NCBI GenBank assembly: GCA_030737835.1
Contig: CM060849.1
Coordinates: forward strand, 30,679,080 to 30,743,079
Source of the DNA: Acorus gramineus
Lineage: Eukaryota > Streptophyta > Magnoliopsida > Acorales > Acoraceae
Direction of reading: 5' to 3'
DNA: 64,000 bases
Under the pieces are notes generated by a model. That model had not been told where the DNA came from and did not search any database. It saw only the letters and a list, made by a program, of their open reading frames with translations. The translations under genes and the position numbers were made by a program. Below, in pieces: positions 16,041 to 51,358 of this stretch (position 1 is its first letter; every line of letters begins with the position of its first letter).

Positions 16041-16193
16041 CATCAAAGAAAAAAAAATAAAAAAGAGAAAGGGCACTGTTACACCGTCATTTGCCAATTC
16101 TCAAATGCCGTCTCATCGGATACATTGTTAGCCATCAAGTAGAATATATATCTCTTTGAACAGTGTGTATGTCTTATTAATTTCTTATTACAC

Positions 16194-17229
16194 TGTAGCG
16201 AACAAAATGTCCCTTTACAAATTTTAAAGATGATGATATGCTCGGAGAGCAAATCAATACATAAAAAGGGTGACGTGGGTACAACTCGATCTTTTAATCC
16301 TCTGATCCTCGGTCTCTTTTGAAGAGTGTCTCGAGATTTACAACTTCAGAGATTTTTACAAGTTTATGAAAATTTAAAAGGAAGATGAAAAGGCTTGCGG
16401 TGCGTGATCCTTCGGGCCTTTTGAGTTTGAGCCTTGTTGTTTAGGACCAGCGGTGCTTTGTTCTTCACCCTTCTTAGGTTTTTTGAACTTGTGATTTGAT
16501 TTGAAGCCGCTTTTTCTTGATCTTCTCTTCTCTGGACTTTCTCCTTCGTGAACAAAGTGAAGATATTCTTCAAGAAGAAGGTGGAATCGAGGGAGAGTTA
16601 GTATTTCTCTCCCTTGGATTTTCTCCACACTTTTCTTTAAGAAGAAGGTGGAATCGAGGGAGAGTTAGTATTTCTCTCCCTTGGATTTTCTCCACACTTT
16701 TCTTTTTCTTCTTCTTTGGCTTTCTTGACTTCTTCTTCTTTTGGTGGATTCTTCAAGAAGAAGGTGGAATCGAGGGAGAGTTTGTATATCTCTCCCTTGG
16801 ATTTTTCCCCACCTTTCTTCTTCTTCTTCTTCTTCTTCTTCTTTTGGTGGATTCTTCAAGAAGAAGGTGGAATCGAGGGAGAGTTTGTATATCTCTCCCT
16901 TGGATTTTTCCCACCCTTCTTCTTCTTCTTGCTTTTTTTTTTGCTTTCTTCCTTCTCTCCCTTAGGCTTTTTTTGTTCTTGCCTTTCTTCCTCCTTCCTC
17001 CTTTCCTTCTTTTTTTTTTCTTCTCCCCCCCCCCTCCCTCCTATTTATAGAGGAAGGGAGGGGTGGGTGGTTATACAAGGTAATGGGTAGTTTTAGGGGG
17101 TGTGGGTAGTTAGGTAATGGGTAGTTTTAGGGGTGTGGGTAGTTAGGAAATTTTTTTTTTTTGTTGACTTTTTATTTATTTATTTATTGATTTGATTTGA
17201 TTTGATTTTAATTAATTTTGACTAAATCC

Positions 17230-17266
<37 letters not shown>

Positions 17267-17278
17267 TGTGTGTCTACA
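16194..17278 (-). repeat. 3' LTR of the Tat element
   Basis: 1085 bp. On the minus strand it has a TATA box CTATAAATAG (plus-strand 17041-17050) and downstream of it four copies of a hairpin-forming repeat. The plus-strand frames over this region give very hydrophobic F/L-rich peptides that are artefacts of CTT repeats. Confidence 0.92.
16572..16910 (-). repeat. Four tandem hairpin repeats inside the Tat LTR
   Basis: Units starting at about 16572, 16639, 16755 and 16858 share AAGAAGAAGGTGGAATCGAG followed by GGAGAGTTNGTATNTCTCTCC. Each unit can fold on GGGAGAG pairing with CTCTCCC. The same array occurs in the other LTR (from about 27171). It lies downstream of the TATA box in element orientation, so it should be part of the transcript leader. 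Confidence 0.75.
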
Positions 17279-17295
17279 AATTGCCCCCCTCAAGG
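17279..17295 (-). promoter_or_regulatory. Polypurine tract of the Tat element
   Basis: On the minus strand it reads CCTTGAGGGGGGCAATT, directly against the 3' LTR. It is the primer for second-strand synthesis. Confidence 0.75.
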
Positions 17296-17539
17296 ATGGA
17301 TAAAAGAGTCCAAGGACGAATTTTGTCATCCTTGATTAATTAATTAATTTATTTATCTTTATTTTTTTTAATTCAAACTTGATTTCATTTAGATAGGGAT
17401 GACATAACTATTAAGTATGTTATGATGTTAAAATTTTAAATTTAAATTTTAAATTTTAAATTTTGAATTTGATTTTATTTAGATATAGATGGCACAACTA
17501 AAATGTTTGTTGTGATACTCAATATTTCAAGTTTAAATT

Positions 17540-17686
17540 TTATCTGTTTAGATATATATAAAAACTTATGGAAAAAGTGGCTATAAATAGGAGTTACTCT
17601 CTTTCACAAAACAATTAAATTAAATTAAAAGAGATAGAGAAGAAAGAGTCAATTTCCTCAACAAAACCATCTTGAAGCCATTAGAG
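17540..17686 (+). promoter_or_regulatory. Putative promoter and 5' UTR of the antisense ORF
   Basis: A TATA box CTATAAATAG at 17581-17590 is followed by an A-rich leader. A consensus donor (GAG|GTTAGT) lies at 17686/17687. An AT-rich, T-rich intron of 166 bp (17687-17852) ends in TTTTTTTTGTAG immediately before the ATG at 17853. This is the layout of a host-like Pol II gene, separate from the LTR promoter and on the opposite strand. The transcript start, about 17612-17620, is inferred from the TATA position only. Confidence 0.6.
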
Positions 17687-17852
17687 GTTAGTATATGTGA
17701 ATATAGGAATTTTTTTTTTTTATTTGATTTGATTTGTTTACTTCAAAGATAACATGATGCAAACATAGATAATTCATGAATTTTTTTTTTTATTTTTTTA
17801 TTTTTTTATTATTATTATTATTTTTTTTACGTGTATTGTTTTTTTTTTGTAG

Positions 17853-18860
17853 ATGACACGAAGGAGCTTCCGCGGTAGCATGTTTTCTCAAAATATCCAA
17901 CCTTCGTCTGGTGAGGAAAATATAGCATACGTTCATCTTCCTTCTGATGGTTGGATCGTGGAAGAGGTAGTCAAAGGAGTCAAATATTTACTTTTTTTCG
18001 ATGTGATGATTGCGCGACATGGGACAGTATCGAAAGAGAATCGTACGACATTGTCGCGTCTGAGGCTGATAGTTCATGGATGGCATGATCCAGATGGTGT
18101 ACAATTTGACCCCAGTCTGTCTATGCCATATATAAGCGAAAATATGCGTTCAGACAAAGAACCTCTTTCAGCTCATCCAAGACCTCTCTTATCACTTCCC
18201 TTTCATCATAATGAAGCGGAGAGTCATCCAACTCCTCTCATAGCATCTCGGATCTGCTCTCGTTCAGCTCGCTGGGGTGAAAGAATAAGGAGTCGAGGCG
18301 ACATTCAGTATTTGAGCGGTTTTTGTGAATGGATGACTGAAGTCTATGAGGGGCTAGCAGCTCGGCAGGAATATTTTTTTTGCGAGCAACTTCAGAAGTT
18401 TGATGTAGATGATCATGCTTTTGCTACTCACATAGAGTCATTCTTTTTTGACTGTGATGCCTACCATACCGCTCGAGCGACGCTCACTATGAATTCTGTT
18501 TCAGACACAGATGGTCAGCTTTCCTCCCTTGGTGAGGAAATCAGATCTTTCATTGAGGGTCGTGATGTAGCCATGTCTGAACTTGCTGTTGCCGAGTCAA
18601 AGCTCGATACTGCAAAGTCGGAGGAAGTGGCCGCTAGAATTATATTTGAAGAAGCCCAGGCTCATGTCACTGCTGCATCTAACATTGTTTCTATGAAGGA
18701 CAATGCACTGAATACTTGGGATATTGCTTTGACTGACAAGCAGAATAAATAGGATCATCTTCGACAGTTGAAAAAGGCGAGGGTTACGGACATCCGCAAT
18801 GTTGACGTCAGGAGAAAGGAGTTGATGCAGCGCCTTCAGAACTTTAGCTTCATATATTAG
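17853..18860 (+). pseudogene. Antisense ORF of the Tat element, one in-frame stop
   Basis: The frame runs from ATG 17853 to a TAG at 18750-18752 (299 codons). It continues in the same frame for 35 more sense codons to a second TAG at 18858-18860, so the first stop looks like a nonsense mutation in a protein of about 335 residues. The protein is soluble-looking. Its last third is rich in A, E, K and L with heptad-like spacing (for example SELAVAESKLDTAKSEEVAA) and the extension is also charged, suggesting a coiled coil. I recognise no catalytic domain. Antisense ORFs at this place are known in Tat elements and some encode a plant mobile domain; I cannot confirm that here. It is transcribed toward pol, convergent with the main RNA, and could give antisense RNA as well as protein. 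Confidence 0.7.
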
Positions 18861-19043
18861 CTCTTTTTTTTTTTTATCTGGACTGAACCTGATGTAACTT
18901 TTCAGGCTGCCTACGTACCCTTACTTAAGGGATCAAGTCACACGTAGTTCCTTTTTTTTTTTTTTTTTTTTTAATCCTTCCAACAAAGCGTTCAAGTTAT
19001 AGCCAGGAAGGGTTGGAACCTTTTTTTTTTTTTTTTTTTTTTT
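18861..19043. other. Poly-T-rich spacer between antisense ORF and pol
   Basis: Contains T-runs at about 18951-18972 and 19021-19045 on the plus strand. In either orientation this is where the two convergent transcripts would overlap or end. Confidence 0.5.
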
Positions 19044-22000
19044 TTATGGATAGTACCTTTTGAGGAACTTTCCATTGATTGGACCAAGTTGAGTCCCTTT
19101 AGGAGTAGTTAATAGGTAAGCACCATTGGTGTAGACTTCTTTGACAATATGGGGGCCATCCCATTTAGCATCGAACTTCTTCCCTGCTCTATGGGACATG
19201 ATGATAGGCCGTTTAACCGCCAACACAAGATCGTCCTTTTGAAAGGATCGAGGACGCACTCTCTTATTGAATGCGCGAGAAAGACGTGCCTGGTAGCATT
19301 CGATGCGTTGTTGTGCTTCAAGTCGCTTTTCATCTAAAGCTTCCAGTTCCGTTAGACGAAGTCGGACGTTGTCATCTTGAGTAAGCCCTTCTTGAATAGC
19401 AATTCTTAATGAAGGAATTTGAAGCTCGAGAGGAAGAATGGCTTCTACTCCGTATACAAGAGAATATGGGGTTGCTTGTGTAGGAGTTCGGAATGATGTA
19501 CGGTAAGCCCAAAGAACTTCGCCCATACGTTCATGCCAATCCTTTTTCGACTTGGAAACTACCTTTTGTAGTAGTTTACACAAGGTCTTGTTGAAGGCTT
19601 CCGCTAATCCATTGGCTGGGGCATTGTACATCGTTGAGCGCCTTTGTATGATCTTGAACTTGGCACAAAATTGGTCCATGGCAGCATTTTTGAATTGTTT
19701 ACCATTGTCTGTCACGATGAAGCGAGGAATGCCATATCGAAAAATAATATTATCTTGGATAAAGTTAATGACCGAATTCTGATTGACTTCTTTGAGAGGA
19801 ATCGCTTCAGCCCATTTAGAGAAGTAATCTGTTGCGGCTAGGATATAGCAATGTTGTTTAGATGACTTTGGCAGGGGTCCGACTATGTCGAGTCCCCAAC
19901 TATAGAATGGCCATGAAGCAACAGTAGGATGTAGGGGCTCTGGAGGCTGATGAATATAGTCCCCATGGAATTGGCAAGCTTGACACCCTTTTGAAAATTT
20001 CATGCAGTCTTTAACCATAGTAGGCCAATAATAACCCATTCTTTTGATATGAAGATGAAGCTTTGGCCCAGATTGATGCGTGCCACATATACCAGAATGT
20101 GCTTCTTTGAGAGCTGTTTCTGCTTCTTCTTGCCTTAAACATCTCATCAAGACGCCATCATAACCACGACGATATAACTCGTCGTTAAAATGAAGGAACC
20201 TCGATGCACGACGACGAATATCAATTTTGTGTTTTGCATCATCTGGAAGCCTGCCGTGAGCAAGATAATTTATCATTGGTTGCCTCCAATCTTGCTCTTC
20301 TGTCATAAATACATGGACCACATCTGTTTGTACTGGAATTTGATTGCTTGTATCATCTGTGACAACCACCCACTTGCGACAAAGAGGGATGACCAAGCGG
20401 TTAGTGTCCGGGAGAGTAAGAGTAGTAGCCAAATTTGCCAGAGCATCTGCTTGTCGGTTGAGGCCCCTTGGAACATGTTGAATAGTGGCATCATCAATAA
20501 TATGGAACAATGTCAATGCCCTTGTATAATACGGTATCAAGTCTTCTTTATTAACTTGATATTCCCCCATAATCTGACAAATAACAAGCTTTGAATCACC
20601 ATGAATTTGGAGTTCTCGAATACCCATGTCGACAGCGAGTTCGAGGCCGATAATTAATGCTTGATATTCTGCCATATTATTAGAACATGGTTCGGATAGG
20701 ACAAAAGAAAATGGGAGAACTTCATCTTTAGGTGTGACAAAGACGATTCCTGCCCCTGCCGCTTCACGTCTTGCAGCACCGTCAAAGAACATCTTCCAAG
20801 ATGGAACAATGTCAATAGAAAGCACTTCTTCGTCAGGAAAATTTTCAGTCAATTCCCATTCAGTAGGGATTGGATAATCTGCTAGAAAGTCGGCCAATAC
20901 TTGTCCTTTTATAGCCTTTTGAGAGACAAAGATGATTTCAAACTCACTCAGAAGGAGAGCCCATTTTGCTAGCCGTCCTGAGAGAACTGGCCTGGACATA
21001 ATATACTTGAGGGGATCTGCTTTAGAAATAAGTCTGATCGTGTGTGCGAGCATGTAATGCCGAAGTTTCTTCGTGGTGAAAATGAGTGCAAGACACATCT
21101 TCTCAATTGGCGAATAGTTTAATTCGGCACCAATAAGAGTACGACTGAGATAATAGCACGCCACTTCTTTGCCAATATGATTTTCTTGAGCAAGGAGTGC
21201 CCCGATAGAGTGTTCTTGAGCACTAATATATAGAATAAGGGGTACACCAGGAACTGGAGCAGATAGAACTGGTGGCTTTAATAAATATTGTTTGATGCTA
21301 TTGAGGGCGTTTTGGCAAGTAGCATCCCACTTGAAGATGGTATCCTTCTTCATGAGTCGGCTAAAGGGGTGACACCTTCCAGCCAAATTTGAAATAAACC
21401 TTCTGATGTAAGCCAAGCGACCTTGTAGACTTCTAAGGTCATGTAATGATTTGGGTTCGGGCATGTTGAGAACAGCATCAATTTTGGATTGATCTATCTC
21501 AATGCCACGATGCCTAACAATGAAGCCAAGAAATTTCCCCGAAGTGACTCCAAATGCGCATTTGAGCGGGTTCATTCGAAGTTGATATCTTCGTAGACGA
21601 TTGAAAATATGTCGAAGATCATCAAGGTGAGAGGTCCTTTGTTTAGACTTCACACGAGATCATCAACGTAACATTCAACCGTTTGGTGGAGAATATCATC
21701 GAAGATCTTTTGCATGGCGCGCTGGTAAGTAGCACCTGCGTTCTTCAAGCCAAATGGCATCACTTTATAGCAATAGATGCCTTTTGGAGTGCGAAAAGCT
21801 GTGAGTTCTTCATCTTTGGGTGCCATTCGAATCTGATTATAGCCAGAAGATCCATCCATGAATGATAGCGCTTCATGACCAGTTGTCGCATCCACCATAA
21901 GTTCAGTAATTGGCAATGGAAAATCATCTTTAGGACACGCATTGTTCAGATCTCTGAAATCTACGCATACTCTGATTTGTCCATTCTTCTTTTCTACTGG

Positions 22001-23317
22001 TACGATGCTCGAGATCCAAGTAGGATATTTGACCTCTCGGATGAAGCCGGCTTCAATTAGCTTGTTGACTTCATTCTCGATTTGTGGGATTAACTCGGGT
22101 CGGTAGCGTCTTTGCCCTTGTTTAATAGGGCTAGCGCCATGCCGAACAGCAAGTTGGTGTACAGCAATTTTAGGATCCAATCCTGGCATCTCTTTATAAG
22201 ACCATGCAAAGACGTCTTTGTACTCCTGAAGAAGTTTAACATATGCAGTTTCTTCTTCTAGAGCTAGAAGTGCACTAAGGAAGGTTGGGCGTGGATCTTC
22301 TTCGGTGCCCAAATTGACTTCTTTTAAGTCATCTACGGTGGATCGTTCTCTTTCATCAAGATCAGGCTGTGCGTCCAGCAATTCGTCGTCCGAATGAGAA
22401 GTATTCTCAATGTTTGGCTCGTCATGAATGGAATTGTGGTTGACGGAGACAACAATGGATGTAGAAGAATCATCCATAGGGGCATCAGAAGGTGGACGAG
22501 TAGTGATGACTACTGTCCTTGGCTTGACACAAGAAGGATCATTCGATGCAGACACTTGAATGGTAGTAAGCTTCGAGCAGAACGGATACATAGGGCTATT
22601 TGAGGATGTCGTAAGTTGTCGACCCTCTTTGTGATTGCCCCCAAGTCGGCGACGTTGTCGGGTGGGGCGAGTGGGCTCCATGGTTGTCTTCGAAATGGGA
22701 GCGATCGGTCCCAAACGACTGAATACTGACTGTCGAGTCGATGGAGCATGGACAACCTTGGATTTCGTCTTTAACTTTTCAGGCCTTCGGGATACTGAAG
22801 TAACCCTTTGTTTGGGGTTTTGTTGTACAGAATGAAGCTCTTGAATGACTTCATCATGCCCCCCAAGCCTAGCTTGATGTTGTGCTTGTCTGCCTCGTCT
22901 TCTTGTACGCCTGGATTTTGACTGAGTATTGTTGATGGACGCCGATGTTGGATTAACTTGAGGTGATTGCGACTCGGACGTGGAAGAATTGTTCGTCATT
23001 TCCACTTGAATATGATTAGAGGAGAGGTCTCCTCTGATGGCTGACTTAACGACGATTGGAGTTGGCACAAAGCCCAGGCCACGTCTGGATATAGGTATCT
23101 TTTCTCCGGCATGAATGAGGTGAGCTTGAGTCTTGGTCATCCCGCACGGGATTGTTTTTGGGGGAAGCGTCCCTAGAGATGCCATATCGCTAATGTGGAA
23201 GCCCGCCTTTTGTAGCAATTTTGACGACTTCTTGCTCCAATGACCTTCTGGTACGAAGCCTGACAATGGAGGAATTGTCACTGATGTAGGTGTCAAGGCA
23301 TGCAAGGGCAAAATCAT
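19044..23317 (-). pseudogene. Tat pol: reverse transcriptase, RNase H x2, integrase
   Basis: The first part (23317-21650) ends in the reverse transcriptase: WISSIVPVEKKNGQIRVCVD, then SGYNQIRMAPKDEELTAFRT and the catalytic YVDDLV. Directly after this, one missing base gives a TGA (21652-21650); the sequence continues in another frame from 21653 to 19044. That part has a degenerate Ty3-type RNase H (ILYISAQEHSIGALLAQ has lost the usual DAS catalytic position), then a second RNase H with intact-looking residues (MFFDGAA, MAEYQALI, HGDSKLVI, NRQADALANLA). The integrase follows, with a CX2C zinc motif (GCQACQF) and the D,D,E triad in LDIVGPL, TDNGKQF and NGLAEAFN. The C-terminal end reads GKFLKRYYP. 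The pol protein would copy and integrate the element; the frameshift disables this copy. Confidence 0.88.
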
Positions 23318-26300
23318 TTTTGCTGAAGTGCGACAATGTCAGCTTCGGTGAATAATGACTGCAATTTCGTAGCTGCTGATGTGAATAGTGGTTGTTCTGA
23401 TGTACGATGCGCTTTGGAAATGAGGCGTAACACAGGGCCAACTTGAGCATTGGTTGGAGGATGTGGATTGATTCCCCGTACATGCTTGATTCGCATCTTT
23501 CTGTTAGAAGTAGATGTAGTTTGCTCTTCAACATTTTTCTTGATGCCGTGTGGAGTTTTCATCGGCAATGCTTCGGCGACTACACCCGTTGCTTGATAGA
23601 ATTTAGCATCAGCAAGATGTATTTCTGTTTTGGTGAAGGGTTTGCTGTCAGCAGCGACACATTTTTCCACACCGTCTTTATAATATTTGAAGCATTGGTG
23701 CCAAGTAGAGACGACTACCCCATTTTCATGTAGCCATGGCCTCCCCAATAGAAGACGATATGAAGTTCTACAATCAATGACATGGAAGAGAATCATTGTA
23801 TCAAGTTCGCCAATTGAGAGCTTTAGGCGTATGATACCAATAGTAGATTGTCCGGCTTGGTTGAACCCTTGAATAACCAATTGGCTTTGAGAAAGCTCAC
23901 TGGTTGTAATGCCTAATTGTTCCATGGTCTGGACAGGCATGATGTTGACAGCAGAACCACAATCTAGCAATATGCGAGTTATTTGCTTCTCTCTGATGTA
24001 TCCTGACACATAGAGGGGCCTATTGTGAAGGCGGACTCCAAGTTGCAGGTCTTCATCAGAGAAAGATATGGTGAAGTTGCAAGACGGTGATGCCCCCTCT
24101 TCTTGATCGGCTTCAGATTCTCTCTTATAATCATCAGGGTTGGTCAAGACTGCTGCCATGGTGAGGCGTGCTTCTTCTGAGAGATGCAACGCTTCAATGA
24201 GAGGTAGATGAAGAATAGCCTCCTGGTAGGAAGCAGAATGATCTTCAGTAGCTTGTGGGCTGACGAGGGCCTTTTCATCATCGGAATGGTCAACTTTGGA
24301 AGACTCCGCCAAGCTAGAGGTAGTAGGGAGCATTTCAACGCTCTTTATTTCTGAATCATGGACCTCCACCATATAGCAAGTCTCCGTGGGAGAGGTTGAA
24401 GAAGAACTGGAAGGAGGGAGTGTTTCAAGGGCGTCGGCTTCAATAGAATTTGCCAGAGTAGGTGGACCCGGGAGATTCTTTTCAATAAGATCTGCAGGGT
24501 CTGTCTGGGTTGCTTTGGATATTTGCCTTGTAGCCATCCTCCTTACTTGGGGATCTGGGAAACACGACTCCTCATTGCGCATCTTCATAGTCCATTCTTC
24601 TTTGTCGATAAGGTCTCCCTCCCTTGGAGTTTGGGATTCCAATGCTTCGCCTCCCCACCCATCAGGGGCAGGATGTACTTCTGGTTCTGGCATAGGAGTG
24701 ACATCAGTGTTAAGAGGAAACAACTCTCCCCTGAAGCAGCTCGAGCAGGGAGAGATGGAACATTTGGGGCAAAGCCTTCTGAAATATTCTTCTTCTTTAA
24801 GAGTTCTTTCGTCAATCTTGAGACGGTGTGTATTCCTCCCGAATGCTGAAACTTGATATTCATCCCGAGAAATGCGTTCCAGATGTGGATCATATCGCAT
24901 ACGAGCATGTGTACAATTACAAGTCGACAGTGGCTTTCGTGGGTCAAGCTCCTTTGGGATTTCAACAGATGAGAAGAAATCGAAGGAGACTGATGTTGTA
25001 TTTGCTGATGCGACATCTCCCAAGTCAAGCTCAATTTTTCCCTGACGTGCAAGATCCATCACCTTCTCTTTGAACACGAAGCATTGCTCAATAGGGTGGC
25101 TAACTACCCTATGATATTTGCAATATAGCAGGTCATTGACACGATCTGCTTGTTCAGGCCTCTTTTTCTCTTTGAGTAACTGATCGAACATAGCGGAGAC
25201 TTCGGAGTCTGGGAAAGGGTACACCTTGGCTTTAAGTTCTTCAAGGGTCATTCGTGGCGCTTTCTTATGAGAGGAGCCTGGATCAAGTTTGCTTTTGTCT
25301 GCTGCACCACTCGTCCCCCATGGTTTTGAGGAAGACGCGATATTGACGACATTCACATGCTTCTTCTTAGGCGCAGATGCTTTGTCTTTGTCATCTTTTG
25401 CAAAGTCCTTCGGCTTGAAGTCTCCGTGAGTGGCTAGACTAATCTCCATATCGTGCGCTCGAGTAGCCAATTCTTCAAAGGTATGAGGTTTGATTCCCTT
25501 GAGAATATAGAGAAGGCCCCAATGCATGCCTTGGATGCACATTTCGATTGCTGAAGTTTCTGACAATCGATCTCGCGAATTAAGAGCAAGATTCCTCCAC
25601 CGGTCAATGTAATCGATCACCGATTCTTCCTTGCGTTGTTTAACTGCAGCCAACTCCACCATGCTGACAGTACGGCGAGTGCTATAGAAGCGAGTGAGAA
25701 ATTCTTGTTCTAAAGCCTCCCAACTGTCGATTGATGCGGGCAAAAGATCGACGTACCAATCGAATGCATTCCCCTTTAGGGAGCGCACGAATTGCTTCAC
25801 CATCAAGTCGCCATAAGTGCCAGCATTGTTGCAGGTTTCGATGAAATGGGCAATGTGTTGTTTTGGATTGCCCTTCCCATCAAAATGCTGAAATTTTGGT
25901 GGTTGGTATCCCGATGGAAAGCGGAGCTGCTGGATACGTTAGTGTACGGCTTTGAATATCCTGCTGAAGATTGGACATATCCACCATTTTGAGTGCGGAC
26001 CATGTCTGCCACTAATGACTGTAATTGTTGTACAGTCATAGCCGGAGCAACTGAAGCTTGAGACGCCGCGAGAACTGTCGTTGGAGGAATGACCATCGAT
26101 TGCTCAATGGGCAAAGTTGATGCAGGGACAGCATTTGGTGACACAGGTACCTGATTTGAGACGCCGATATCATCCTTCGAGCCAGATTTTTGGAGAAGAA
26201 TGCTAATTTGACGGTCCTTCTCCATCATCATTTAAGTCATCTGCGCCATAGATTGGTTGAATTGCTGAATTTGCTCCTCGAGTTTGGGCATAGAGTGATG

Positions 26301-26690
26301 GTTGTGAGTGCGCCTTGCCCCCGGCGTGGGCCCATCGAATCTGGCGTTGGCATCATCATCGAAGATGTAATTATGACGAATTACAGTCTCCACTTCATCT
26401 TCGGTACGCGATACTCGAACATGAGCACCAAGATCATTTGAATCGTCATGTACCTCCTGTGCTGTTGCATTATTGGCATTCTTCATCGTACCTTCGTCTT
26501 CCATTTCTGGAACGAGGGTTGATGTCGTAGCTCTAGCTCGCCTAGTGTAGACGCGCATGCCAGGAGTGGTGACTGGTATTGCATCGTGCGCCTCCTGGAA
26601 AAGATTTTCCAAACCTCCTTGTTGAAGTGAAGTAGGGTCAACAAGAGGCGTTTCGCTTGCAGGAATGGCGTTGGTGTTGGCTTCGGCCAT
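23314..26690 (-). pseudogene. Tat gag-protease, interrupted
   Basis: The frame begins at ATG 26690 and hits a TAA at 26234-26232, then continues in the same frame to 25803. A frameshift near 25890 leads into the long frame 25806-23314. The Retrotrans_gag domain follows (SLKGNAFDWYVDLLPASIDS, then FLTRFYSTRR and YIDRWRNLAL). A cysteine/histidine-containing YCKYHRVVSHPIEQCF segment comes next. The aspartic protease is near 23950-24000 (ITRILLDCGSAVNIMP, where DCGS replaces the more common DSGA/DTGA). Another frame change separates it from pol at 23317. Gag would form the particle and the protease would cut the polyprotein. Confidence 0.85.
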
Positions 26691-26785: not shown

Positions 26786-27828
26786 TGTAGCGAACAAAAA
26801 TGTTCCTTTACAAATTTTAAAGATGATGATATGCTCGGAGAGCAAATCAATACATAAAAAGGGTGATGTGGGTACAACTCGATCTTTTAATCCTCTGATC
26901 CTCGGTCTCTTTTGAAGAGTGTCTCGAGAATTACAACTTCAGGGATTTTTACAAGTTTGTGAAAATTTAAAAGGAAGATGAAGAGAAGAGGCTTGCGGTG
27001 CGTGATCCTTCGGGCCTTTTGAGTTTGAGCCTTGTTGTTTAGGACCAGCGGTGCTTTGTTCTTCACCCTTCTTAGGTTTTTTGAACTTGTGATTTGATTT
27101 GAAGCCGCTTTTTCTTGATCTTCCCTTCTCTGGACTTTCTCCTTCGTGAACAAAGTGAAGATATTCTTCAAGAAGAAGGTGGAATCGAGGGAGAGTTAGT
27201 ATTTCTCTCCCTTGGATTTTCTCCACACTTTTCTTTAAGAAGAAGGTGGAATCGAGGGAGAGTTAGTATTTCTCTCCCTTGGATTTTCTCCACACTTTTC
27301 TTTTTCTTCTTCTTTGGCTTTCTTGACTTCTTCTTCTTTTGGTGGATTCTTCAAGAAGAAGGTGGAATCGAGGGAGAGTTTGTATATCTCTCCCTTGGAT
27401 TTTTCCCCACCCTTCTTCTTCTTCTTCTTCTTCTTCTTCTTCTTTTGGTGGATTCTTCAAGAAGAAGGTGGAATCGAGGGAGAGTTTGTATATCTCTCCC
27501 TTGGATTTTTCCCACCCTTCTTCTTCTTCTTGCTTTTGCTTTCTTCCTTCTCTCCCTTAGGCTTTTTTTGTTCTTGCCTTTCTTCCTCCCCTCTCCTTCC
27601 TTCTTTTTTTTTTTTTACTCTCCCCCCCCCCCTCCCTCCTATTTATAGAGGAAGGGAGGGGTGGGTGGTTATACAAGGTAATGGGTAGTTTTAGGGGGTG
27701 TGGGTAGTTAGGTAATGGGTAGTTTTAGGGGTGTGGGTAGTTAGGAAATTTTTTTTTTTTTGTTGACTTTTTCTTTATTTATTTATTTGATTTGATTTGA
27801 TTTGATTTTAATTGATTTTGACTAAATC

Positions 27829-27861
<33 letters not shown>

Positions 27862-27874
27862 TTTTGTGTCTACA
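26786..27874 (-). repeat. 5' LTR of the Tat element
   Basis: 1089 bp and nearly identical by eye to the LTR at 16194-17278. Small indels such as an extra GAAGAG near 26982 distinguish them. The TATA box on the minus strand is at about 27640-27649. Confidence 0.92.
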
Positions 27875-27879
27875 TACAC

Positions 27880-32719: not shown

Positions 32720-35181
32720 TCAAGGTTTCTCTTCAAGAGCAGCTTCATATATCCTCTTAAAAGCCTTCTCCATGCATGTTGTTAACAATTTAGAGTCGAT
32801 GAAACCTTTCTCCGTCCCCATTGCCACCTTCAATTTCCCCATGTAGCTCACCATAGTTATTGTGAGGCTCTGCAATGACCAAGACATCAATTAAAATCCA
32901 TTTTCCAGAACCTTAGTTAAGTACTTTATGTCACATGCAAAATGTGTATCAATAATCAAGTCACCTGAGGGACACCAACAACCATGAAGTGGAAGCTTCG
33001 TACAGGATGATCGGCAAGCGACATCTTCTCATTCGGACCGATCAAATTCGATATGGTCATGCTCGTGTTCTTCAGCGTCGAATGGATGTATTGTGCAGTC
33101 ACCTATGTCACCAGGTCGGGTTTAAATGCATAACTCAATGAGATATTTACAGAAGAACCGTGCATGGAGAATTTAAATAAAATTGTTCTATCTACATGGC
33201 ATGATCTCATGTAATGTCATAAGAATTCTATGTGGTTTTTACACAGAGGATTTGGACTAAACTCTCAACAAATCATAAATTACTAAAAGAAAAATAGATA
33301 GTATATTGTGTGTGTGTGTTTTTTATTATATGTGTCTACCTCTGGGCCTCGAAATCTCCTCATGGTCTCAAGGAGTTGGCCAGTAAGGAAAACTCCAAGA
33401 GAGCTCTTCTTCCTCTTGATGAGCCGCTTCACCTTGGAAATGATTTTGAGTGGGTCATCCTTGTAGAGGCCGTTTCGAGTCGGGACAGAGATGTGTATGA
33501 ACCCAAATTGGTTCCCCCATGGGGACTCTGCATCTGGTTTGGTCATATCTTTGGGGTTCTTGTAGTTGTCAATGACCCTTGTATTGAGTAACACCAGTGC
33601 TGTTGCTTGAGCTGATTTGGATCCGCATCCGACGCTTTGCATATAGAGTTGGGTGCCATGGAATATTATTCCGCAGATGATGTCGTTCACCGTCTGATTT
33701 ACAGGCATGTTGACAGTTGATCATTATATATATTAATATAGGCTGTTAAATTAACCATTAGATATTAAGATAAACTTATCTTAAATTTCATTATAATAAT
33801 ATATAAATTTATTCAAAGATAATACAAAAATGTTAAAATCAATATGCAAAATTTTCAAAGTCCCCTTTAGACATTGTTATCAAATCATCCGGAAAAGGAG
33901 GATCTGTTCTCCAATAATAAAAGAAACCTTCATCAGTGGTAAAAAATAAATTACTTTCAGTGAAAATGTCCCCAGTCTAATATTCACAAAACAATCCCAC
34001 AAGTTCAATTCAAACAGTTTTACAGCATCTAGGTGGCATTTTATGATTGGCTGACATTAAATATGCTTTATGACATTAGAGACAGAACCCAATAAATGTT
34101 GCACGGTAGTCACATATGGGGGTCCAGGTCACCTTATTTGAATTCCCCTTTAATTACCAATCGTTATCATAAAGTACTGCTACTACTTCGACTGACTTTA
34201 ATTCCATGTCATTGTAAACAATACTAAAATAAAACAAAAAAAAACTCACCCCACCAATCCTGGCCTTGACTCGCCGGACGTCGTCGAGCGAGAACGTCAC
34301 GAACGACATCTCAATCTGCCTGGACTCGACCCCCTCCATCCCGGACCTTATCGGGCTCACCTCATCCTCCACGAACGTGCTCTTCGCCAGCCCCCAAACG
34401 AAGTCCCTCACCGTGTTCATCCCTAGCGAAACCAAACCAGGGCCACCGGCGCAGAAGCCGGCGCCGGCGGTCTTCCCTGGGAAAGTGAGGGGGAGGGAGG
34501 GGTCGTCGGCCCTCTTGACGCAGGAGAAGAGGGCGCTCATGAGCGAGTAGCCGTCGCCGAGGGCGTGGTGGAGCTTGAACATGACCTTGCCCTCGCCGTG
34601 GCTGGTGGGGTACTTGATTATGTGGAGCTCCCACAATGGACGGCTCTCTGGGAGCCGGTCCGTGGCGATCTTCGACACGTAGTCTTGGACGAGCTCGTCG
34701 TAGGTCAGAGTGGAGAGTCCGGCGGGAAAGACCGGAACCTTGACGTGGTCTGCAAGGTTGACTTTGACTCTCCTCCATTGTTGCACTCCGTGCGAGTCCT
34801 TGACCTGACTCAGGGTCGTCGTTTGTAAACACATTTTAGGTTGATTTTTGCTTTTACGAAAAAAAAAAAAAAATGTACATAGTATAAAGTTTATTTTAAT
34901 TTTATTTTTAGTATAAGAGATATTTAAAAAAAAAAAAAACAAAGAAAGTATATATGTACCATGATAGAAGAGAAGCGAGGATTGATGGGCAAGAAGAGGG
35001 TGTCGAGGAGGGGAAAGGTTTGGGAGTCGTCGATGGGGACGTCGGACTCGAACACGCCGAGGATGCACACGCAGAGGGCGGAGCTGTTGAAGTACTGGCC
35101 CGTCGGGCTCACCGGCTCTTCTACTTCATCTTCTCCGATCTTGGCCGCCTCCACCTCCACCGCCAAGTGTTCTGACCCCAT
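32720..35181 (-). CDS. WSD1-like wax ester synthase/diacylglycerol acyltransferase, copy B
   Basis: Five minus-strand exons: 35181-34960, 34804-34250, 33693-33340, 33102-32965 and 32869-32720. All junctions are GT-AG and phase 0, giving 472 residues. The acyltransferase motif HHALGDG is at about residues 153-159, and the C-terminal domain keeps NTSMTISNLIGP and FMVVGVPQ. Exon lengths differ from copy A only by one codon in each of exons 1, 2 and 3. The exon 2 region after the catalytic motif is the most diverged (AGAGFCAGGPG here against AAAKKVGTCGPG). No stop or frameshift was found. The expected role is wax ester or triacylglycerol synthesis at the ER; the two copies may differ in substrate or tissue, which sequence alone does not show. 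Confidence 0.9.
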
Positions 35182-38639: not shown

Positions 38640-40034
38640 TTGTCTAATTCGCTAAAGAGAATGGCTATGGTTGGTGACATCTGTCTGGCAGACAGCGCTA
38701 CAACGCATACGATCCTACGAAATAGAAAATATTTTTCAACGTTGACATTAATTAATGCAAATGTTAATACTATCTCTGGTACTACAAAATTAATTGAAGG
38801 CTCTGGAAGAGCAAATATAATATTACCAGGAGGTACAAAATTTTGTATTAATGATGCATTATATTCAGCAAGATCCAGAAGAAATCTGCTAAGTTTTAAG
38901 GATATTCGTATTAATGGATATCATATTGAGACTATAAGTGAAAACAATATGGAGTATTTATGTATTACTTCAATTGTTTCAGGCCAAAAGCATATATTAG
39001 AGAAACTTCATGCTCTCTCATCCGGGCTGTATTATACAACCATAAAAACAATCGAATCATATGCTGTAACGAACCAGAAGTTCTATGATTCAAATATTTT
39101 TACACTTTGGCATGATCGTCTCGGGCATCCAGGGTCTACAATGATGCGTCGAATAATTGATAATTCATTTGGGCATTCGTTAAAGAACCAGAAGATTCTT
39201 TTACCTAATCACTATCAATGCACTTCGTGCTCACAAGGAAAATTGATAGTTAGACCATCCCCTACAAAAGTCAATGTTGAGTCACCAACATTTTTGCAAA
39301 GAATCCAAGGGGATATATGTGGCCCAATCCACCCCCCATGTGGACCATTCAAATATTTCATGGTATTGATAGACGCATCTGCTAGATGGTCGCATGTTTG
39401 TCTATTATCCACTCGGAATGCTGCATTTGCAAGACTACTTGCTCAGATAATCCGATTACAGTCTCATTTTTCGGATTATCCTATAAAGTCAATACGCCTT
39501 GATGGAGCTGGTGAATTCACATCGAAAACTTTTAACGACTATTGTATGTCGCATGGCATCGATGTTGAACACCCTGTTGCTCATGTGCACACCCAAAATG
39601 GATTAGCTGAATCATTTATTAAGCATCTTCAGCTAATTGCACGTCCTATGCTTTTGAGGACAAAATTACCCGTTTCAGCTTGGGGTCACGCTATATTGCA
39701 TGCAGCAGCATTAGTTCGCCTTCGGCCAACTGCTTATCATCAATATTCCCCTTTACAGCTTGTACTGGGTCATCAACCAAATATTTCACATCTTCGAATT
39801 TTTGGTTGTGCTGTACAAGTTCCTATTGCCCCTACACAACGAACTAAAATGGGCCCTCAACGTCGATTGGGAATTTATGTAGGCTTTGATTCTCCTTCTA
39901 TTATAAGATATCTTGAACCATTGACAGGGGATATTTTTACCGCTCGATTTACGGATTGTCATTTTGATGAGACAATATTCCCGTCGTTAGGGGGAGAAAA
40001 TCGGTCGCCAGAAAAACGACGTGAACTTACATGA
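38640..40034 (+). pseudogene. Copia 1 protease and integrase
   Basis: The frame opens almost at the protease active site: LADSATTHTIL at about residues 17-27 replaces the usual DSGA motif, as seen in one group of plant copia elements. The GAG-pre-integrase HHCC zinc domain follows (WHDRLGHPG, then CTSCSQGK). The integrase core comes next, with the catalytic residues in GDICGPI, IRLDGAGEF and NGLAESFIKH. The frame ends near 40034 with a stop beyond the integrase. Without gag this copy could not make particles on its own. Confidence 0.82.
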
Positions 40035-40046
40035 AAAACTCCATCT

Positions 40047-42194
40047 TTGTCTCATCTTGATCCTCGCACTAATCAATGTGAAACTGAAGTGCAAAGAATC
40101 ACTCATCTTCAAAGAATTGCGCATCAATTGCCAGATGCATTCAATGATGCAGCAAAAGTGATGAAATCACATATTCCAGCTGCTAATACTCCAGCTCGAA
40201 TTAATGTTCCAATAGAAAAAACTGTTAATATGCCGGCTAATGAATCAACAAAAACACGCCTGAAGCGTGGAAGACCTATAGGCTCAAAAGATTCAGCTCC
40301 CCGAAGGAGAAAAACAATGAAGAATAATTCTCTAGAAGAGTATGAAACACTTGAAAGACCCACAATAATAACTCCTACAGAAGAAGAAGCCCCTGAAGTG
40401 ACACAAGTCCCGAAGAGACTGACGTCCCTGAAGTGACGCCCGTGCATGAAGAACAAGTACATGGAAATGAAGAAATTTCCATAAATTATGCAAATTCACA
40501 AATATTGTGGGATCGAAAGCAATGCTTGTTGATGATATATTCTCATTTGCAGTAGCTACAGAAATCATTTCAGATAATGATTTAGAACCACGTTCAGTGG
40601 ATGAATATAGACGAAAAAATTGTTGGCCACAATGGAAAGCTGCTATTCAAACATAATTGGATTCACTTGCAAAACACCAAGTATTTGGACCAGTAGTCCT
40701 AACCCCTGAAGGTGTTAAACCAGTAGGATGTAAATGGTGTTTGCGAGAAAACGAAATGAAAGAAACGACATTGTTAGATACAAAGCTCGTCTTGTGGCAC
40801 AGGGTTTCCTGCAGAGACCTGGGATAGATTTTGAAGAGACATATTCTCCTGTGATGGACACAATCACATTTCGGTATTTAATTAGTCTTGTAGTCTCAGA
40901 AGGACTTGACATGCAGCTAATGGATGTGGTTACTGCATATTTATATGGAAAATTAGATACCGACATTTATATGAAAGTTCCTGAAGGACTAAAATTCTGA
41001 AGCAAAACCACAAAACATGTACTCAATCAAGCTAAGACGATCCTTGTATAGATTAAAGCAATCTGGACGAATGTGGTATAACCGTCTTAGTGAGTACTTA
41101 ATAAAAGAAGGATATGTCAATGATCCAATATGCCCCTGTGTATTTATTAAAAAAACGGAACTCGGATTTACCATTATTGCAGTATATGTTGATGATATTA
41201 ATCTAATTGGAACTCCTGAAGAGCTCGAAAAGGCTTCCGAATATCTGAAAAAGAGTTTGAAATGAAAGATCTTGGAAAAACAAGATACTGTCTCGGCTTG
41301 CAAATTGAGCAAAGTTCAAATGGGATACTTGTTCATCAAACAACATATGTTGAAAAAATCCTGAAGCGTTTTAATATGGACAAATGTCATCCATTAAGTA
41401 CTCCAATGGTAGTAAGGTTACTTGACCCAAAGAAGGACCATTTTCGTCCAAAAGAAGATACTGAAAATCTTCTTGGTCCTGAAGTACCATATCTTAGTGC
41501 AATTGGTGCCTTATTATATTTGGCCCAATGCACTAGACCTGACATTGCATTTTCAGTTAATTTATTGGTCAGATTTAGCTCTGCACCAACTCGAAGGCAT
41601 TGGAATGGTGTGAAGCACATTTTTCGTTATCTTCGTGGAATGTCAGACATGGGTCTATTCTATGCAAAGGATTCCAATAATGGTGCACAACTAAAGGGTT
41701 ATGCAGATTCAGGATATCTTTCAGATCCTCACAAGGCTCGCTCACAAACAGGCTATGTATTCACTTGCGGTGGCACAGCAATCTCTTGGCGATCTACGAA
41801 ACAGACTTTGGTCGCCACGTCTTCTAACCACTCTGAGATTCTTGCACTCCACGAAGCAAGCCGGGAATGCGTGTGGATAAGGTCTTTGGTTCATCATATT
41901 CGTACTGCATGCGGACTATCTCTCATTACAGATGTTCCAACAACTATATATGAAGACAATGCAGCATGTATTGCTCAAATCAATGGGGGATATATCAAGG
42001 GTGATAGAACGAAGCATATTTCTCCAAAATTCTTTTACACTCATGAGCTGCAGTAGAGACATGAAATTGTTGTTGAACAGATTCAGTCAAAGGACAATCT
42101 TGCAGATTTGTTTACTAAAGCTTTGTCGACATCAACATTCAAGAAGCTGGTGTATGAAATCGGGATGCGACGAGTTTGCGACCAAAATTCTTGA
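40047..42194 (+). pseudogene. Copia 1 reverse transcriptase and RNase H
   Basis: Broken into pieces: the linker after integrase (40047-40436), the RT palm (40734-41000, YKARLVAQGFLQRPGIDFEE) and the continuation 41017-41265 with YRLKQSGRMWYNRL and the catalytic YVDDINLIG. RNase H lies at 41262-42056 (ADSGYLSDPHKARSQTGYVF, then SSNHSEILALHEA). A TAG at 42054-42056 interrupts the RNase H tail, which continues in frame to DNLADLFTKAL. At least three frame changes and two stops make it non-functional. Confidence 0.82.
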
Positions 42195-47701: not shown

Positions 47702-47761
47702 GTGACTATATTTTCATCATCCGAGGCATATATTTTTTCTGTTATTCTCTTTTTGCCTATT

Positions 47762-48838
47762 ATGGCTACGGATAACACTCAGATCATCGATGTTAAGTTT
47801 GATGGTAACAATTATGATGTCTGGTCTATTAGTCTTGAACTTCAGCTTGATTATCGTCGCCTATTGGGTCATGTTACTGGCACTAATCTAGCTCCTGTAC
47901 TTGAATCCTCTCCACCGGGTTCTGATGAGACCACCATCAAGGCCAGAGCTGAGGCGTATACTAAGGCTTTGTTGACATGGAAGGAGGCCGATTCTCGGGT
48001 GAAAGCTTATATTGCTTCTTCGGTTATTCCAAATATCCGTAAACATTTGAAGCCGTTCATTACAGCCAAGGAATATTGGGACTTTCTGAAGAATTTCTAT
48101 ACGCAGACCGATGGTGCTCAGGAATTCTATCTACATCAGGCCATTTCTACTTCTTATCAAGGGGAGCTTTCTATTCGTGATTTTTATTCTCTTTTGTCTG
48201 ATTACTGGGATCAACTCGCACCTATGGATCCTCAGATGGAGGGTATTTTTCTGACACGCTATCGTGAGTACCGTAATCGTCAACGATTGTACCAATTCTT
48301 GATGCGTCTTCGTCCTGAGTTCGAGGCTATTCGTGCACAGATTCTTCATCGTTCTCCCAAACCGTCTCTTGATACGGTTCTTTTTGAGTTAGTTGCTGAG
48401 GAGACGCGTCTTCGCACTGTTGTCACTCCGCCTATCGTTGATCACAGTTCTGTCAATGTTGCACATCGTCAAGACAATCGCTACACTCGGGTCACTTGCT
48501 ATTATTGCCATAAATTTGGACACGTGCAATCTGAATGTCGTAAGCGTGCTCGTGATGGTGCTCCTCTTGTTTATGTACCTCGCACTTCAGCTCCTGGAGC
48601 ACTTCCTCCAGCACCTCGTCCACTAGATCCTGCAGCATCACGTGCACTAGCGCCTCGGGCGCAAGCACCTCGGGCACCTTCTACAGTTCCTCCACGTCGC
48701 TCTCAGCCTCGACCTGCAGCTGCTGTTGCATCTGATTTTCTACTGATCCGCCGGCATATTCTTCCTCTCAGATCACTGAGAGTCTTGCGCAGCTCCACCT
48801 TCAACAACAACAGCTTCAAGATATGCTTCGCTCAGTGA
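47762..48838 (+). CDS. Copia 2 gag
   Basis: I place the start at the ATG 47762 (MATDNTQIIDVKFDGNNYDV), which is where this family begins; an upstream ATG in the same frame exists at 47702. The UBN2-type gag domain follows (KFDGNNYDVWSISLELQL, then LLTWKEADSRVKAYI and YWDFLKNFYT). A CCHC knuckle CYYCHKFGHVQSEC lies near 48498-48540. A proline/alanine-rich tail ends out of frame at 48838, overlapping the protease frame. The main gag domain is uninterrupted. Gag would form the particle. The tail may be shifted relative to the active family. Confidence 0.78.
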   Translation: MATDNTQIIDVKFDGNNYDVWSISLELQLDYRRLLGHVTGTNLAPVLESSPPGSDETTIKARAEAYTKALLTWKEADSRVKAYIASSVIPNIRKHLKPFITAKEYWDFLKNFYTQTDGAQEFYLHQAISTSYQGELSIRDFYSLLSDYWDQLAPMDPQMEGIFLTRYREYRNRQRLYQFLMRLRPEFEAIRAQILHRSPKPSLDTVLFELVAEETRLRTVVTPPIVDHSSVNVAHRQDNRYTRVTCYYCHKFGHVQSECRKRARDGAPLVYVPRTSAPGALPPAPRPLDPAASRALAPRAQAPRAPSTVPPRRSQPRPAAAVASDFLLIRRHILPLRSLRVLRSSTFNNNSFKICFAQ

Positions 48839-51358
48839 CTGGTAGTGATTCATCTGCTCCCTTTTCTGCTTCTACTGCGGCGACAGGTAACCTTACCTCC
48901 TCATGGATTCTTGACTCTGGGGCTTCCCATCATATGACTTCTCAGGCATCCTTTATTAGTTGTCCTACTCGCGTGTTTCCCACTCCTGTTATTCGTACGG
49001 CAGATGGGACTCCTCTGTCTGTGTCGAGTTCTGGTTCTCTTGCTGATCCTTCTCATCGATTTCAACTTCCTGATGTTTTTCATGTTCCTGGTCTATCACT
49101 AAATTTGCTTTCTGTTGGTCAAATTGCGGATCATGATTGTCTCATTACTTTTGATTCTTCTACTTGTTCTGTACAGGATCGTCGTACGGGGAAGCAGATT
49201 GGGACAGGCTCTAGACGCGGTGGGCTCTACTACATGGATCATCTTCATATTCCTTCGTCTTCTGCAGCTTCTGCTCGCTTGATTTCTTCTTCTCCTTCCT
49301 CCTTTGATGTATGGCACCGCCGTCTTGGCCATCTCTCTCCTCCAAGACTTCGTTATCTAATAAGTACCGGTGTTTTAGGTTCCTTTTCAAAAACTGAGCT
49401 TCAACCATGTGTGGGCTGCAAGTTGGCAAAACACTTGGCTCTTCCATTTCCTACTAGTAAACACATTTCTGCTTCTCCTTTTGATCTAGTTCACTCTGAT
49501 GTTTGGGGTCCCTCCCCTATTCCTTCTAAAGGGGGTAACCGTTATTATGTTATTTTTATTGATGATTTTTCTCGCTTTACCTGGATATATTTGATGCATA
49601 GTCGTTCTGAGTTGTTACCCATCTATAAATCTTTTGCTACAATGGTTGAAACTCAGTTTTTCAAACGCATCAAGGTGTTTTGCTCGTTCCACTATGTGTG
49701 TCTTTCTTGGGTATAGTAATGAGATCAAAGGATATCGATGCTATGATCATGTTGCTCGTCGTCTTCGGACATCTTGTCATGTCACATTCTCTGAGAGTCA
49801 TCCATACTACGCTCTTCGCTCGCCTCCTGTTCGTCTTCCCCAACCCACGATTGAAGAAGTCACATTTTTAAACTTTTCTATTCCTGATTTCTCATCTTCA
49901 CCTTCTGCTCCTCAGTCATCTATTCCGTCTGTACCTGACCACTCTTCCTCGTCAGTCCCATCTTCACCCTTGCCGTCTTCGTCAACTTCTTTTTCGGATG
50001 ATTCACATAAGACGGTTCTGTCTACTCCTACACCTATTCCTGATGCTGCTTCGCCAGAAGACGATTCTGCTTCCGCACCAGTTGCTCCTCGTCGCAATCC
50101 GCCTCGCGCTCGTCGGCCTCCTCAACGACTCAGCTTGGTTGCCTCTGATTCTTTTTCTCCTAATTTTCAGTATTTTCTTTCAGCTGTTTCCACTCATTGG
50201 GAGCCTCAATCATATCGTGAGGCTGTCGGCATTCCAGAATGGGAAGGTGCCATGCCATCTTCACCGCGCTCTTTATGGTCTCAAGCAGGCTCCTCGTGCT
50301 TGGTTCGCTCGATTCACTGATGCTATATATGCTGCTGGGTTTGTTCCGAGTTCCTCTGATCCAGCTTTATTTGTTCACACCTCTGGTCCTCATCATACTA
50401 TCCTGCTGCTTTATGTTGATGACATGATCATCCCCGGCGATGATTCGTCTCATATACAGTCAGTCAAGCAACATCTTCAGCGTCAATTTGAGATGAAAGA
50501 TCTTGACAAACTTTGCTATTTTCTAGGCTTGGAAGTTGCTTCTGCTCCGCGTGGTTATCTTCTCTCCCAACGCAAGTATACTGCTGACTTGATCGACCGT
50601 GCCTGTCTGACTGATGATCGCATTTCTCACACTCATATTGAGCTTCATGCTAAGCTCCGGCCCGACGATAGAGAACCACTTTCTGATGTTACTCGTTATA
50701 GACAGCTTGTTAGAAGCCTTGTCTATCTCACTGTCACTCGTCTTGACATTGCCTATGTTGTGCATATTGTCAGTCAGTTTGTTGCTGCCCCTCGTACTGT
50801 TCATTATGCAAAGTTCTTCGGATTATACGCTATCTACGTGGCACTATATCTCGTGCTCTGCTGTTACCGTCTTCTTCTACTCTTGAACTTCGTGCTTATA
50901 CTGATGCTGATTGGGCAGGAGATGTCACAGATCGAAAATCCACAACTGGTATATGTGTCTTTCTTGGGGACTCTCTTATATCTTGGAAGGCCAAGAAACA
51001 AGACATTGTTTCTCGTTTGAGTGCTAAGGTCGAATATCGTGCTACAGCATCTGCTACTGCTGAGGTTGTTTGGCTTCGGCGCCTCCTCTCTGACATGGGC
51101 GTCATTCTATCTGCGTCTACTCCTCTATATTGTGACAACAAGAGCGCCATTCAGATTGCTAGCAATCCAGTATTTCATGAACGTACGAAGCACATCGAGA
51201 TCGATTGTCACTTCGTCCGTCATCATTTTATTGCGGGCACTATATCACTCCCATATATTTCCTCTTCTCTTCAGTTATCAGACTTTTTCACAAAGTCCCA
51301 TACACTTCAGAGGCATGATTTTTTGTTGAGCAAACTCTCGGTGTATGATTCACCATGA
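48823..51358 (+). pseudogene. Copia 2 pol with integrase and RT deletions
   Basis: The protease motif WILDSGASHHMTS lies near 48903-48941. The pre-integrase zinc domain (WHRRLGHLSPPRL, CVGCKLAKH) and the start of the integrase core follow (DLVHSDVWGPSP, FIDDFSRFTW). At about 49670 the sequence jumps from TQFFKRIK to RSTMCVFLGYSNEIKGYRCY, so the rest of the catalytic core is deleted. At about 50245 it jumps from YREAVGIPEW to CHLHRALYGLKQAPRAWF, removing the first half of RT; YVDDMI (about 50415) remains. A frameshift near 50815 moves RNase H to another frame (DADWAGDVTDRKSTTG, WLRRLLSDMGV, SDFFTKSH), ending at 51358. Confidence 0.82.

Follow-up and report, generated by a model that had tools for sequence, protein, structure and literature searches.

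A probable antisense gene in a Tat-type element

The window (the whole 64,000-nt stretch of Acorus gramineus DNA analyzed here) raises the question of why a retrotransposon should carry, in the interval from pol to its 3' LTR and antisense to gag-pol, an ORF of 299 amino acids (17853–18752, + strand). Comparison with related copies points, with what we regard as high probability, to an answer in two parts: family members would possess a self-contained antisense gene, and the window copy would be a deletion derivative in which the ORF is a remnant of that gene and not the native protein. This statement covers the anatomy of the gene and the history of the copy; the role of the protein is not included in it.

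The host element lies on the − strand and is delimited by a 5' LTR (26786–27874) and a 3' LTR (16194–17278) of 1089 and 1085 nt, flanked by a TACAC target-site duplication (left copy 16189–16193, right copy 27875–27879). A presumed polypurine tract, GAGGGGGGCAATT (17279–17291, − strand), adjoins the 3' LTR. Over 1075 aligned sites the two LTRs are separated by 21 substitutions (K2P 0.020), which gives an age of ~0.8–1.4 My under assumed rates of 1.3e-8 and 7e-9. Gag-pol (19044–26690, − strand) is spread over several broken frames and includes gag, protease (a match below Pfam's cut-off), reverse transcriptase (RT), RNase H, a second RNase H, and integrase. Within 19044–21653, Pfam places RT_RNaseH at 137–238, RVT_3 at 290–409, Integrase_H2C2 at 508–561, and rve at 582–677. 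We read the RVT_3 match as the second RNase H (aRH). As it lies between RNase H and integrase, an arrangement reported for Ogre and Retand and used as a Tat-clade criterion (PMC6317226), the element belongs to the Tat clade of Ty3/gypsy, in agreement with the initial annotation. Neighboring gag-pol frames in the mechanical ORF list overlap by exactly 4 nt at three places (21650–21653, 23314–23317, and 25803–25806), which may be a coincidence of that list.

The ORF sits entirely in the interval from the end of pol to the 3' LTR. The original description of an antisense gene facing pol is supported at the sequence level. The further proposal that the unit is antisense to integrase and RNase H is not: pol ends at 19044 without overlap, and an antisense RNA across those domains would therefore need read-through. 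At 299 amino acids it is the longest ATG-initiated ORF in 17279–19043, where the maximum across 1,000 first-order Markov resamples of the stretch is 175. The frame is closed by a TAG at 18750–18752; past this codon it is open again until a second TAG at 18858–18860, which fits the end (18860) first assigned to the unit. The window ORF matches no Pfam family (best E 0.085). A single-sequence structure model of it is poor overall (mean pLDDT 45.9) and has a helix at 219–298 with blocks within residues 241–299 at pLDDT 73–93; the coiled-coil-like tail noted earlier is compatible with this model.

Putative promoter and predicted leader intron

When the window's own genome (398.6 Mb) was searched by tblastn with the window ORF, 91 matches were obtained, many of which start or end at residue 174. 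By hand count these represent ~30 close-family loci, and 20 of them were retrieved with their flanks as siblings, together with five more diverged loci and two additional flanks. All copy comparisons are thus within one genome, and counts out of 20–22 refer to the 20 siblings, the locus L055, and the window.

Direct reading of the window confirmed the positions given at the outset for the TATA box, the donor, the acceptor, and the ATG. The putative TATA box CTATAAATAG of the antisense gene occupies 17581–17590 (+ strand). A predicted noncoding exon 1 (17612–17686, + strand), its start placed ~30 nt after the TATA box, ends in GAG at 17686; GTTAGT begins at 17687, TTTTTGTAG ends at 17852, and the ATG follows at 17853, which defines a predicted leader intron of 166 nt (17687–17852, + strand) with four ATGs inside it. 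The TATA box and the AG|GTTAGT donor are present in 22/22 rows (20/20 siblings), and the acceptor with its start codon, TTTTGTAG|ATGAC, in 21/22 (19/20 siblings, the acceptor being absent from L045). A promoter plus a leader intron abutting the ATG is thus supported at the sequence level, conservation in sibling elements included. Both leader splice sites could be parsed in 18 of the 22 rows. The intron is 129–912 nt long in these (652–912 nt in 14 long-intron siblings) and contains 4–21 ATGs in 18/18, and exon 1 is ATG-free in 17/18. Splicing of an antisense transcript would remove these many upstream ATGs and make the start codon of the plant mobile domain exon described below the first ATG.

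Loss of the plant mobile domain in the window copy

At the residue-174 point, 16 of the 20 siblings contain an extra block that is absent from the other four (L047–L050), as it is from the window. Measured in 12 of the 16 full copies, the block is 2165–2232 bp long in ten, 1148 bp in L042, and 5326 bp in L038. The exon 2 frame is open through it, for 766–789 amino acids, in only four of the 16. Exon 2 of L031 contains a plant mobile domain (PMD; PF10536) at 61 bits (E 1.5e-16; Pfam gathering cut-off 34.9), and a piece of L036 matches at 45.8 bits. The early hint of a plant mobile domain therefore holds for the family, through these two siblings, but not for the window ORF, which has no PMD match. 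PF10536 is very abundant in this genome (at least 163 matches, with 117 of 1,379 candidates scored). In a sequence search of the PDB, the PMD exon had a single match (E 0.58), which we take as chance.

A 12-bp near-repeat flanks the block in siblings, and the junction of the deletion copies sits within it; in the window this is 18359–18370 (+ strand), where the block with the PMD and a predicted intron 2 is gone. Searched genome-wide with up to two mismatches, the pattern occurs at 21 places: the five deletion junctions and 16 intact right flanks. What precedes the junction in the window (17853–18370, + strand; ~173 codons, aligned to L031 up to 2263) corresponds to the N-terminal part of native exon 2, and what follows (18371–18860, + strand) to a remnant of native exon 3, in which the TAG at 18750–18752 precedes the native stop at 18858–18860. 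We also considered that the block might be an intron and the window a spliced copy. This was rejected, since the block ends, AGCTCGGCAGGA|GACC and GGTGG|AGCTCGG, are unlike splice sites, the block holds a coding domain, and the near-repeat explains the junction.

In the tree, a branch with support 98/94 sets the five deletion copies (window and L047–L050) apart from the others, and one with support 100/97 does so for the four of them with a short leader intron. They occupy five genomic places; L049 and L050 lie on one contig ~14.5 kb apart and, in the stretches compared, have only element sequence in common. The PMD block thus appears to have been lost once, in the ancestor of the five-copy clade that includes the window. 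After the junction the window has a run of eight T (18374–18381, + strand), the extra T joining the two frames, and the other four deletion copies have seven. With seven T the frame ends at 184 amino acids in L047 and L048; L049 and L050 already stop at 78. The TAG at 18750–18752 is common to the window, L048, L049, and L050 and is absent from L047 and L031. The seven-T frames and the TAG common to four copies therefore suggest an order of events in which one deletion took the PMD, the leader intron then shrank and the nonsense change arose, and spread continued. The open frame of the window would be a later accident or a sequencing error.

These observations bear on whether the 299-amino-acid ORF is a new, shorter working protein, an N-terminus plus a C-terminal helix without the PMD, with a regulatory task such as competing with the full-length protein. 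The 299 codons are open, the promoter and splice sites have been kept, and the distant locus L051 likewise has exon 3 without a detectable exon 2. However, among the five deletion copies the frame is open across the junction in the window only, its premature TAG is common to three others, and the eighth T may be a sequencing error, so we consider such a protein highly improbable. The initial reading of the ORF as a working protein is accordingly given up, given that its PMD segment is deleted and its frame depends on one base.

The predicted full-length gene

The gene reconstructed from the siblings would occupy the opposite strand of the pol–3' LTR interval, under a TATA promoter, and would comprise a noncoding exon, a leader intron whose last base directly precedes the ATG, a long PMD exon, a predicted short intron 2, and a C-terminal exon. 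Transcription from the TATA box, splicing, and translation are all predicted from this anatomy. The native product would be ~1055 amino acids, the summed length of L031 with predicted intron 2 removed, of which the 299-amino-acid window ORF would be a leftover. The predicted intron 2 is bordered by GATGG|GT in 15/16 full copies and by CACAG in all 16; at the same place L054 has GT..AG and L051 an AG. Its length is 33–71 nt in 15 copies, a multiple of three in four of them and not in 11, so that retention would shift the frame in those 11. A second intron in the antisense gene is therefore likely. Plant introns are usually longer, and a stretch of 33–71 nt may be spliced inefficiently or may represent a slippery T tract instead. 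Splicing of the genomic RNA cannot remove introns that lie antisense to it, so a gene with this anatomy could survive reverse transcription intact, which would account for the persistence of introns in an element that copies itself via RNA.

Recent capture of a host gene is disfavored as the source of the PMD exon. By hand comparison, all 71 matches listed for it (59 of 310 candidates scored) are at loci already among the 91 tblastn matches, and no close host relative was found among those 71.

Purifying selection

Substitutions were counted with an assumed transition weight of 4, leaving out codons with gaps or fewer than eight copies as well as the diverged loci. For substitutions in a single copy, the N/S ratio relative to expectation is 0.94 in the N-terminus, 0.94 in the PMD part, 1.04 in exon 3, and 1.39 at the end of pol, and we read these changes as decay after insertion. 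For substitutions in two or more copies the values are 0.74, 0.41, 0.54, and 0.21, respectively. Shared and single substitutions differ significantly in the PMD part (p 0.003, Fisher test), in the three parts together (p 0.0009), and in pol (p 0.001). For shared substitutions, constraint on the antisense gene is not significantly lower than at the end of pol (p 0.13). Control frames of the PMD part give 0.94–1.39 for shared changes, except one minus frame (0.49) that has 19 stops. The control frames reach 0.53 in the N-terminus and 0.46 in exon 3, as low as the true frame, and selection within the family is thus specific for the PMD part only.

Between families, dN/dS against L031 is 0.30 for L051 exon 3, 0.30 and 0.31 for the L052 arms, 0.24 and 0.25 for the L053 arms, and 0.25 and 0.32 for the L054 arms. 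All seven comparisons thus fall at 0.24–0.32, but they come from four loci, the two arms of one locus not being independent, and the values are rough because dS is high (0.76–0.96). The end of pol gives 0.49 (L031 versus L051). The dN/dS check proposed at the outset therefore yields values that are not near 1, and purifying selection acts, within the family, on the PMD part and, between families, on the protein.

This argues against the antisense RNA, and not the protein, being what matters. Convergent transcription with the gag-pol RNA would then yield double-stranded RNA and, with it, small RNAs able to dampen the element. The antisense transcript would by geometry pair with the 3' portion of the genomic RNA, an antisense-RNA possibility has been raised for such ORFs (PMC7264820), and all five deletion copies keep the TATA box, donor, and acceptor despite their broken protein. 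However, RNA alone leaves the protein-level selection, between families and in the PMD part, unexplained, and double-stranded RNA does not require conserved splice sites. We regard this account as unlikely, though it is the strongest of the competitors to a protein-coding antisense gene.

Diverged relatives

The same promoter–intron–ORF unit is found in L055 and in the minus arm of L053, whose pieces have 50%–69% protein identity. The L053 minus arm has TTATAAATAG, AGGTTAG, and CGCTTTTGTAG|ATG. The plus arm contains variants: its acceptor is as in the minus arm, but it has TTACAAATAG and a GTTAGT without the preceding AG. In L054, TTATAAATAG occurs only in the plus arm, and the leader is short, without the long intron.

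The conservation of the sites in 21–22 of 22 rows, and in part in these relatives, bears on the alternative that AT-rich DNA produced the promoter–intron pattern by chance and that the ORF is inert baggage. The region is indeed AT-rich with many T tracts, and the frames are broken in most copies. Nevertheless, the ORF exceeds the longest of the 1,000 resamples and the between-family dN/dS is well under 1; together with the conserved sites, these make a chance origin very hard to credit, and a genuine antisense gene is the reading that we retain.

Long inverted repeats with pieces of the PMD gene in both arms are seen in L052 (2198–5610), L053 (491–4088), and L054 (1238–6491), and their aligned arm pieces are 81%–92% alike. 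Stretches similar to the window promoter region occur in both arms of L053 and of L054. No gag-pol match was found in L052–L054, nor in 5–6 kb to one side of L053 (L057) and L054 (L056). These inverted repeats could be a source of hairpin RNA. L051 (4354–5385) is a distant element with a pol match, in which exon 3 lies in a 343-amino-acid open frame soon after LTR-like sequence; exon 2 was not detected within 7 kb, and L051 is perhaps a second, independent loss of the PMD.

Relation to known antisense ORFs and plant mobile domains

Self-promoted antisense ORFs and Gypsy PMDs are each already known in print. Antisense ORFs of Tat/Retand elements (Grande gene23, RIRE2, and Retand; PMC7264820, PMC11963269) likewise occupy the opposite strand of the pol–3' LTR region. 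For gene23 of Grande, transcription is driven by a promoter located upstream of the gene itself, and the protein is nuclear (PMC7264820). The Retand antisense ORFs differ in domain content: Transposase_28 occurs in those of 97% of Retand clusters (PMC11963269), whereas the gene described here has the PMD, and Transposase_28 (PF04195) had no match at E up to 1 in the window ORF or in four sibling pieces (two from L031 and two from L036). The pol–3' LTR region spans 1,765 bp in the window, this small size being due to the deletion, and ~4.85 kb in L031 (estimated from alignment ends), compared to a Retand criterion of 2,933–6,566 bp. The word "intron" is absent from the main text of PMC7264820 and PMC11963269, and the former asks for examination of antisense and spliced transcripts.

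PF10536 has likewise been reported in Ty3/gypsy elements, as the Gypsy-encoded clades PMD-A1/A2 (PMC5418596), in an extra ORF of 57% of Ogre elements, a sister group within the Tat clade (PMC6317226), and in Gypsy elements in PMC9289625. The Ogre-type feature, a PMD in an extra ORF, is present in L031 and L036 and not in the window copy. Unlike the present case, no orientation, promoter, or introns of the PMD gene are described in the available sections of PMC5418596 and PMC6317226. In the latter, extra ORFs were predicted as uninterrupted frames of at least 250 codons, an approach that would miss an exon structure. HBZ of HTLV, named in PMC11963269, is also an antisense accessory gene of a retroelement; this likeness is one of layout alone. 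Among titles and abstract openings in a limited look at the open-access literature, we found no description of an intron-bearing antisense architecture of this kind or of such a deletion clade.

The published antisense ORFs of Tat elements have no assigned function, and in at least one large survey extra ORFs were sought as uninterrupted frames (PMC6317226). If the antisense gene is spliced, surveys of that type would recover it in fragments, and in a deleted copy the PMD escapes notice altogether, as happened when the window was first read.

Possible role of the protein

The most likely role for the protein of the antisense gene is a trans effect, within the nucleus, on expression of the element. 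The host PMD proteins MAIN and MAIL1, with PP7L, act in transposable element silencing (PMC7156037), and TE-encoded PMDs have been suggested to be a counter-silencing strategy (PMC8616336). MAIN and MAIL1 have the same Pfam domain as the element protein but are host genes. Going by this common domain, the protein, as a relative of MAIN and MAIL1, may tentatively be supposed to interfere with the host silencing pathway, an idea we think somewhat more apt to be wrong than right. A general nuclear regulator of transposition would be the next choice.

The deletion clade spread with the gene broken. Hence its members can either dispense with the gene or draw on the product made by other copies, and their spread in the absence of the PMD suggests that there is no requirement for this product in cis. 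One could go further and suppose that the lineage keeps an intron-bearing, self-promoted antisense gene as a trans-acting mimic of a host silencing protein, with the deleted relatives as cheaters on the mimic of intact copies; this fuller scenario is speculative and quite doubtful. The conserved promoter, splice sites, and protein offer a concrete junction for RNA-seq, the PMD offers testable host partners (PP7L, MAIN, and MAIL1), and the deletion clade allows the spread of copies that have the PMD and of copies that lack it to be compared in nature.

Other ORFs in the window

Two similar minus-strand ORFs with an HHALGDG motif (2211–2783 and 34154–35068), one on each side of the element, presumably represent genes resembling wax ester synthase/DGAT. 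The ORFs at 38640–42056 and 47702–51020 look like two Copia-type elements, and that at 56685–57200, which has a GGQSDGKSS motif, we take to resemble the start of a dynamin-related protein gene.
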